From NCBI GenBank assembly GCA_009778965.1, contig WRFE01000001.1:49117-113116 (forward strand): a stretch of 64,000 bases of DNA, written 5' to 3'. The DNA is from Candidatus Endomicrobium labiotermitis (GTDB taxonomy: Bacteria; Elusimicrobiota; Endomicrobiia; Endomicrobiales; Endomicrobiaceae). Made by a program: the position numbers and the translations under genes. A model generated the notes under the pieces. That model had not been told where the DNA came from and did not search any database. It saw only the letters and a list, made by a program, of their open reading frames with translations. This document shows positions 23,505 to 42,295 of the stretch, in pieces. The stretch's first letter is position 1. Every line of letters begins with the position of its first letter.

Positions 23505-23643
23505 AATAAGACTCCTTTTATATAATATTCTACTCTATGTGACTTATTTGTCATTGCGGGGAGGAAGCAATGTTTCCGACGAAGTAATCCATTTTAAAAG
23601 CAATGTGGATTGCCATGTCAAGACTTTGTCGTCTTTCAGACCC

Positions 23644-33387: not shown

Positions 33388-33487
33388 CGCCCTCTCCTTA
33401 ATCCTCTCCCTGACAAGGGAGAGGAAAGAAAGACAAAAATTCTGTTTCCCCTCTCCATTGTCAGGGAGAGGGCAGGGTGAGGGAGCG
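33388..33487. repeat. Family F palindromic repeat, full unit, between oppB and oppC
   Basis: cgccctctccttaatcctctccctgacaagggagaggaaag...cctctccattgtcagggagagggcagggtgagggagcg. Confidence 0.85.
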
Positions 33488-34462: not shown

Positions 34463-34490
34463 TTATGTCCTTTGCTTACAATAATACTAT

Positions 34491-34525
34491 GTCACCCTGA
34501 GCGAAGCCGAAGGGTCTGCCGTTAA
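34491..34525. repeat. Left half of a split family A repeat
   Basis: gtcaccctgagcgaagccgaagggtctgccgttaa, identical to the left half of 14946..15027. Confidence 0.85.
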
Positions 34526-34533
34526 GATTAACA

Positions 34534-34821
34534 CTATAAAATAGTTTTATACAAATCACTCCATGATTTATTACTTGTTTCTATAAGCAAAATTTTCTTT
34601 TCTCTTCGCCAGCCCTTAAGTTGTTTTTCTCTTTCTATTGCTTCCGTTACATTATTAAACATTTCGGCATAAACCAATTTATTAACTTTATATTTCTTTG
34701 TAAATCCCGGAACAAGCCCTTCCTTATGTTCATATACTCTTCTTGCTATATCATTTGTAATGCCGATATACATAACACCATCTTTTTTACTTGCCATTAT
34801 ATAAACACAATAATTTCTCAT
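34534..34821 (-). CDS. GIY-YIG endonuclease domain small protein
   Basis: CVYIMASKKDGVMYIGITNDIARRVYEHKEG...FTKKYKVNKLVYAEMFNNVTEAIEREKQLKGWRREKKILLIE. Confidence 0.9.
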   Translation of the reverse strand: MRNYCVYIMASKKDGVMYIGITNDIARRVYEHKEGLVPGFTKKYKVNKLVYAEMFNNVTEAIEREKQLKGWRREKKILLIETSNKSWSDLYKTIL

Positions 34822-34840
34822 AATCTTTCATCAAATTAAA

Positions 34841-34887
34841 CTGCAGATGTTTCGGCTACGCAACTATGTTGCTTCGCTCAACATGAC
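34841..34887. repeat. Right half of the split family A repeat
   Basis: ctgcagatgtttcggctacgcaactatgttgcttcgctcaacatgac; matches the right half of other A copies. Confidence 0.8.
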
Positions 34888-34915
34888 AAACAATGACAGA
34901 CAACAACAAAATCCT

Positions 34916-41682: not shown

Positions 41683-41698
41683 ATTATTTATCTTTAAC

Positions 41699-41770
41699 TG
41701 CGCCCGTCCGGACTTGAACCGGAAGCGCCGGCTTCGGAGGCCAGTGTTTTATCCATTAAACTACGGGCGC
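41699..41770 (-). tRNA. tRNA-Arg (anticodon CCG)
   Basis: Minus strand GCGCCCG TA GTTTAATGGATAAAAC A CTGGC CTCCGAA GCCGG CGCTTC CGG TTCAAGT CCG GACGGGCGC A; 7-bp acceptor stem, T loop TTCAAGT. Confidence 0.92.
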
Positions 41771-41779
41771 ATTGCTTTT

Positions 41780-41817
41780 CTCCTCTCCCTTGTCAGGGAG
41801 AGGGCGGGGTGAGGGCG
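41780..41817. repeat. Family F half-unit flanking the DUF559 gene (left)
   Basis: tcctctcccttgtcagggagagggcggggtgagggcg. Confidence 0.8.
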
Positions 41818-42164
41818 TTCAGTATAATGACATATACCCCATCCAAATTAGACAAAACTTCATTATTCCAAAATCTTAAAACTTTAAAACCGTTATTATT
41901 AAAGAACTTTGTTCTCTTTTCATCGTATACTTGTTTTTTTGTATCGTTGTGTTGTCCGCCATCTATTTCTATTATAAATTTTTTAGCCAAACACACAAAA
42001 TCTACAATATAACTTCCTATTTGGTGTTGTCTGCGAAAAGAATAACCGGTTTGCTTATTCCTTAATAAGTTCCATATTTCTTTTTCGGCATCAGTGCTTT
42101 GTTTTCTATTTGAGCGGGCAAGATTTGTTAATTTTAATTTTTCATTTTTGACAAATCTTCTCAC
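41793..42164 (-). CDS. DUF559 (VSR-like) endonuclease domain protein
   Basis: NLARSNRKQSTDAEKEIWNLLRNKQTGYSFRRQHQIGSYIVDFVCLAKKFIIEIDGGQHNDTKKQVYDEKRTKFFNNNGFKVLRFWNNEVL, classic DUF559 motif. Confidence 0.9.
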   Translation of the reverse strand: MRRFVKNEKLKLTNLARSNRKQSTDAEKEIWNLLRNKQTGYSFRRQHQIGSYIVDFVCLAKKFIIEIDGGQHNDTKKQVYDEKRTKFFNNNGFKVLRFWNNEVLSNLDGVYVIILNALTPPSP

Positions 42165-42168
42165 GACT

Positions 42169-42295
42169 CGCCCTCACCTTAATCCTCTCCTCCGTTTCAC
42201 TTCGGAGCCGGTGCGCTCACCACTCGCGCCCGCGGCAGACATGTGCTCCTTATTCGTCGCACTGCCGCCCTGACACGGGAGAGGAAAGTACTACA
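42169..42295. repeat. Family F half-unit flanking the DUF559 gene (right, inverted), interrupted by an H element
   Basis: cgccctcaccttaatcctctcc[insert]ctgacacgggagaggaaag; uninterrupted equivalent at 33388. Confidence 0.8.
42191..42269. repeat. H element copy 2, nested in a family F repeat
   Basis: tccgtttcacttcggagccggtgcgctcaccactcgcgcccgcggcagacatgtgctccttattcgtcgcactgccgcc. Confidence 0.8.

Follow-up and report, generated by a model that had tools for sequence, protein, structure and literature searches.

REP/REPIN sequences and their RAYT enzyme (TnpA_REP, a Y1/HUH transposase) form a system of hairpin repeats that are present in many copies and carry an asymmetric tag. The gene of the enzyme has a dispersed palindrome on either side in inverted orientation, enzyme and repeat co-vary, and single copies occur together with inverted doublets. 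The DUF559 system described here resembles it in each of these respects, but RAYT is an HUH enzyme and ours an unrelated PD-(D/E)XK nuclease of the Vsr-like type, and the GTAG/CGTC tag of REP is replaced by a purine-block tail. The other close relative is the Box C or triplex-forming repeat, known in Escherichia coli since the 1990s and present in more than 260 genomes (PMC4666352). In vitro this motif (TM_ECO, PIT) adopts a stable intrastrand triplex, according to Holder et al. 2015, who found no mobility functions near the motifs and called their origin unclear (PMC4666352); the motif has also been associated with local instability in E. coli (PMC4666352).

The window protein shares its domain and fold with other DUF559 (PF04480) proteins, such as E. 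coli YcjD, Neisseria NGO0050 (PDB 3hrl) and Caulobacter VsrA, and its catalytic-domain fold is similar to those of the Vsr-related homing endonuclease I-Bth0305I (PDB 3r3p) and E. coli Vsr (1vsr). I-Bth0305I is a precedent for gene mobility through cutting; unlike it, the window gene has no intron or intein context and sits between whole inverted repeats. The accessible portions of the literature mentioning DUF559 describe no role of the domain with repeats. Likewise, in the accessible portions of the literature outside subscription journals and preprints, we found no earlier report of a link between DUF559 and palindromes, of GIY-YIG with REP, or of a link between triplex motifs and an endonuclease.

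A DUF559 cassette beside tRNA-Arg

The window, the whole 64,000-nucleotide stretch analysed here, holds an autonomous-looking cassette of the form stem-tail / DUF559 / tail-stem, together with a gene-less copy of the same element.

33389..33484, no strand: doublet of the cassette's element with no gene, in the order tail-stem-spacer-stem-tail and with its tails pointing outward; no copy at that site in the same-genus genome G023
41698..41771, minus strand: tRNA-Arg(CCG), a neighbour only (ARAGORN; Rfam)
41777..41817, no strand: left repeat arm TTTCTCCTCTCCCTTGTCAGGGAGAGGGCGGGGTGAGGGCG (sequence; 9-bp hairpin fold, z=-2.6; about 40 genomic relatives), with its stem-loop at 41782-41803 followed by the gene-facing tail GGGGTGAGGG at 41806-41815
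41793..42164, minus strand: putative DUF559 endonuclease ORF (PD-(D/E)XK, Vsr-like), 123 aa, GTG start (PF04480)
42169..42190, no strand: right arm, first half CGCCCTCACCTTAATCCTCTCC, with the gene-facing tail GCCCTCACC, a TTAAT linker and the 5' stem strand CCTCTCC
42191..42267, no strand: a different dispersed repeat (families D4/D6), one 77-nt copy of which lies within the right-arm hairpin
42268..42289, no strand: right arm, second half CCCTGACACGGGAGAGGAAAG, with the loop and the 3' stem strand

Each arm consists of a hairpin (CCTCTCCC-loop-GGGAGAGG) and a purine tail GGTGAGGG; both tails point toward the DUF559 gene, and 41781-41798 and 42268-42285 are 94% complementary. The earlier note had placed the gene between inverted repeats, and its coordinates stand, with the ORF running from 42164 to 41793 on the minus strand. 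It had also read the C-terminal residues ALTPPSP as repeat-encoded, which proves correct for all seven and for the TGA stop, which likewise lies inside the left arm. The distance of about 10 bp that it gave between tRNA-Arg and the left flank is the distance to the arm's stem, the T-run of the arm lying 5 bp away. The right flank does start at 42169 as it had stated, but is not a single uninterrupted arm, the second half resuming at 42268 after 77 nt. Further copies of this nested 77-nt repeat (CGCTCACCACTCGCGCCCG...TGCTCCTTATTCGTCGCACTGC) lie at 23626 and 59212, and there are many in the genus (query positions 983-1092).

The nuclease gene is intact and under constraint. The ORF matches PF04480 with E=1.3e-36 and 125 bits (curated cut-off 20.6); D55, E66, D68 and H72 are invariant or nearly so in an alignment of 50 sequences, and dN/dS is 0.07-0.21 among the DUF559 pairs with estimable dS. 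The solved folds nearest to the AlphaFold model (pLDDT 87) are NGO0050 (3hrl) and then I-Bth0305I (3r3p, E=4.5e-5), with Vsr (1vsr) weaker at 0.06. An assignment as Vsr mismatch endonuclease was rejected, TIGR00632 (NCBIfam) scoring 22 bits, below its cut-off of 97.85, as was a defence-system reading, for which PADLOC gave only weak, partial matches. The third DUF559-like match of this genome (L003, on C89) is a Vsr-like gene near two apparent tRNA genes that has no such flanking palindromes.

By pattern search, about 40 relatives of the flanking palindrome are scattered over the 1.9-Mb genome; the pattern read backward gave 0 and shuffled windows gave counts of about 0, so chance is excluded. 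Gene-less doublets with the cassette's inward tail polarity are present at C75, C103 and C26 of the same genome, and several of the genome's palindromes are missing from the orthologous intergenic sites of congeners. At the cassette's own site, four relatives, G023 (12 bp), G166, G026 and G062, have a tRNA-Arg/def gap of 12-51 bp with no insert; these are the empty sites that the earlier note had suggested looking for at tRNA-Arg, and they lie between tRNA-Arg and def. The same gap holds a gene-less element of the cassette's palindrome class in G058 and another palindrome, again with no nuclease gene, in G136. A DUF559 remnant lies between two arms in G071. Adjacency to the tRNA as a cause was rejected, since G023, G166, G026 and G062 keep tRNA-Arg and def adjacent with no insert. 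The genus comparison, in which the sites are too diverged, yielded no target-site duplication or clean excision junction. Of the features of a MITE or insertion sequence, the cassette has the inverted repeats, and no target-site duplication was readable in the genus or at the E. coli sites described below.

Inverted-repeat flanks at nuclease loci

The association was examined in a main set made up of every PF04480 match below E=1e-20 that 199 genomes of the phylum yielded; these loci were found by profile and carry no bias toward repeats. At each locus the 250-nt upstream flank was aligned to the downstream flank in reverse complement, and a score of at least 30 counted as a pass. Inverted-repeat flanks were found at 28 of 37 DUF559 loci versus 2 of 444 random windows; these controls were drawn from the DUF559 loci themselves and are not fully independent, so the P-values are nominal. 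The enrichment of DUF559 flanks over control windows, by which the earlier note had proposed to check its idea, is therefore present. A multi-phylum set came from a scan of genome contigs that gave 80 loci from many phyla, 79 of them usable, with such flanks at 53/79 against 4/948 windows; its ranking query contained the repeat-encoded C-terminal residues, a selection bias that leaves the profile-based set as the main test. The upstream flank lies outside that query and was used for breadth: the tail motif occurs within 150 nt upstream at 68 of 116 loci (both sets) versus 13 of 898 windows. Of the tails, 50 of 63 upstream (50:13) and 49 of 57 downstream (49:8) point at the gene. Three loci with a degenerate catalytic motif (L052, L055, L070) all have no flanks (exact p ~0.01). 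We regard the association of DUF559 with inverted repeats as solid and practically certain.

Long arms were seen at two of the loci. One, L244, is a DUF559 gene on plasmid pDEIPR03 of Deinococcus proteolyticus; its long inverted arms are almost identical, and it lies within a 4-hydroxyphenylacetate catabolic gene cluster. The other, L081 in Legionella anisa, has inverted arms of about 146 bp. In a study of L. pneumophila evolution, the recombination hotspots listed include DUF559 segments and GIY-YIG genes (PMC12308824).

Standalone GIY-YIG genes have inverted-repeat flanks at 14 of 27 loci versus 0 of 272 control windows, with palindromes of a TGTCAT type, while 0 of 7 long-frame, UvrC-like GIY-YIG genes do. 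The earlier note's view that two nuclease folds occupy one architecture holds (DUF559 28/37 vs 2/444; GIY-YIG 14/27 vs 0/272), and the enrichment it had thought worth checking for standalone GIY-YIG is there. The claim is refined by the palindromes, whose classes are exclusive to each nuclease family: the pyrimidine/purine class flanks both sides of 23/37 DUF559 and 0/27 GIY-YIG genes, and the TGTCAT class 0/37 and 7/27, respectively. At Y1 (HUH) loci of 20 mostly palindrome-rich genomes the DUF559-type class was on both sides in 0/20 and other inverted repeats in 9/20. The window's own GIY-YIG gene (34594-34815, region 34490-34889) lies between inverted TGTCACCCTGAGCG / CGCTCAACATGACA repeats; it scores 21 in the 250-nt test, though its family is strongly enriched.

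Palindrome type also follows the DUF559 subfamily. Across genomes, higher DUF559 identity goes with more similar palindromes (Mantel r=0.37, p=0.001), two DUF559 subfamilies within one genome have different palindromes, and the second DUF559 gene of the window's genome (L002) has a ATTCCCCTTTT-type repeat like that of its G023 relative. In pattern searches, at least four exact CCTCTCC..GGAGAGG palindromes were found in 14 of 26 genomes with DUF559 and 9 of 173 without, a comparison uncorrected for phylogeny, which confounds copy-number correlations in general. The association of DUF559 with palindrome number persists in genomes with and without Y1, and the presence of an HUH transposase correlates with palindrome number as well (p=7e-5). 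At least 10 copies are present in 15 of 20 genomes from the multi-phylum set; G004, G092 and G175 have many palindromes and no DUF559.

Box C elements and E. coli ycjD

The layout of Box C, a pyrimidine block, a purine block and a second purine block in tandem, is that of the window element (CCTCTCCC..GGGAGAGG + GGGGTGAGGG), which is also dispersed and intergenic. Box C / PIT / TM_ECO and the window element thus have in common a GC-rich pyrimidine stem, a loop, a purine stem and an extra purine tail, and both occur as tens of intergenic, dispersed copies with inverted pairs common; stem, loop and tail sequences vary by lineage. To judge from these sequence features, the window's flanking repeat matches the Box C / PIT / intrastrand-triplex class and would be its local version. 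One difference is that Box C was published with no mobility gene nearby, whereas elements of the window type enclose one specific nuclease family.

E. coli itself has a DUF559 gene, ycjD, between sapF and fabI. In strain KE47 the end of ycjD runs into a Box C-type element whose tail is directed at the gene; between this element and fabI lies a further, full copy of Box C. The element is on the 3' side only, the hairpin upstream bears no relation to it, and the locus did not pass the two-sided test (score 19); with the upstream arm missing, ycjD is only a partial example. A 38-mer beside ycjD, which to judge by its sequence and copy number is the Box C / triplex motif, was found at a median of 19 places in E. 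coli genomes and is present in 5396 of the 5426. In an evenly spaced sample it was found at 14-28 places (median 20) in genomes with ycjD and 1-19 (median 5) in those without, a difference confounded by phylogroup. Genomes without ycjD have the eefRABCD operon at that position, which leaves no clean empty site to use as a natural experiment.

At E. coli tkt-ypfG (L249, L270-L272), one intergenic site carries a Box C element in some strains and a REP-like unit in others, which indicates that the two kinds of repeat replace each other. The difference at recA-recX is an allele replacement, and no target-site duplication was found at tkt-ypfG or recA-recX, where the changes are replacements rather than clean insertions.

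Possible roles of the nuclease

The architecture, its enrichment, the tail polarity, the palindrome class that tracks the nuclease subfamily, the dispersed copies, their presence or absence among relatives and the intact, constrained nuclease are observed; recognition, cleavage and mobilisation are inferred. On balance, we propose that DUF559 is probably a nuclease dedicated to moving or maintaining Box C-type elements. It may recognise its own class of hairpin-plus-tail and cut or nick there, after which break-and-repair or single-strand processing would copy the elements to new intergenic sites. On this view the singles and doublets dispersed through the genome would be non-autonomous and depend on an enzyme supplied in trans, in the way presumed for REP/REPIN and RAYT. 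All the findings agree with the earlier note's more general suggestion that small nucleases may help the palindromes to spread or be maintained. Against a DUF559 that moves the elements stand the lack of a target-site duplication or clean excision junction among the sites compared, the one-sided ycjD, the palindrome-rich G004, G092 and G175 with no DUF559, the parallel correlation with HUH and the phylogroup-confounded copy numbers of E. coli.

A less likely alternative, though one to be taken seriously, is that DUF559 is a homing-type parasite that invades existing everted palindrome doublets cut by its nuclease, exploiting the repeats and not creating them. Among the nearest fold relatives is the homing endonuclease I-Bth0305I. 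Everted doublets with no gene inside (stem-tail-short loop-tail-stem) are present in the same genome and would be empty homing sites, though none was matched to an occupied site, and in G058 a gene-less element occupies the tRNA-Arg/def gap that holds the cassette in the window. Such a parasite does not account for the spread of the single copies in the window's genome, where no HUH transposase was detected. The subfamily-matched palindromes and the loss of flanks with loss of catalysis fit homing and mobility alike and so do not discriminate between them.

It is rather improbable that the protein is a structure-specific repair enzyme, captured beside its substrate, that processes hairpin or triplex DNA and so stabilises or trims the repeats. 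The triplex formed in vitro and the local instability in E. coli (PMC4666352) would suit this role, as would the Vsr-like fold and a Caulobacter DUF559 protein that is held responsible for the SOS response in cells with no cytosine methylase (PMC12907096). However, a general repair enzyme need not sit within inverted copies or track the palindrome subtype, nor does it call for a compact cassette whose coding end is merged into the repeat.

We consider it very unlikely that DUF559 is cargo between two palindromes moved by another transposase, HUH/RAYT or other. Palindrome number does correlate with HUH presence (p=7e-5), but the window's genome (40 palindromes) and G129 (28) both have no Y1 match; an HUH transposase of the RAYT type as current mobiliser was rejected for the window's genome, where no PF01797 match was detected. 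Moreover, the DUF559-type class flanks both sides of 0/20 Y1 loci in the mostly palindrome-rich genomes, and cargo would not be a single gene family with a matched palindrome subtype. Coincidence, in which repeats pile up in intergenic gaps and the gene is there by chance, can be dismissed: the tRNA-Arg/def gap is indeed a hot spot, where G058 and G136 carry repeats with no nuclease gene, but the control windows (2/444; 4/948) refute it, the enrichment being two orders of magnitude over same-locus windows, as do the polarity and the class exclusivity.

The reading we favour offers one specific candidate enzyme, paired with its own repeat class, so that the question of where Box C came from can be put to a direct test in E. 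coli K-12, whose DUF559 gene is ycjD. DUF559, a common domain of unknown function, also gains a hypothesis for its function. A wider generalisation, which we offer tentatively as possible but short of probable, is that these are bacteria-wide selfish or domesticated elements independent of HUH, DDE, serine and tyrosine enzymes, in which DUF559 would mobilise triplex-type and GIY-YIG TGTCAT-type palindromes, and from which E. coli Box C would have originated. The findings suggest that no fewer than three nuclease folds unrelated to one another, HUH, DUF559 and GIY-YIG, have each come to be used in amplifying palindromes.
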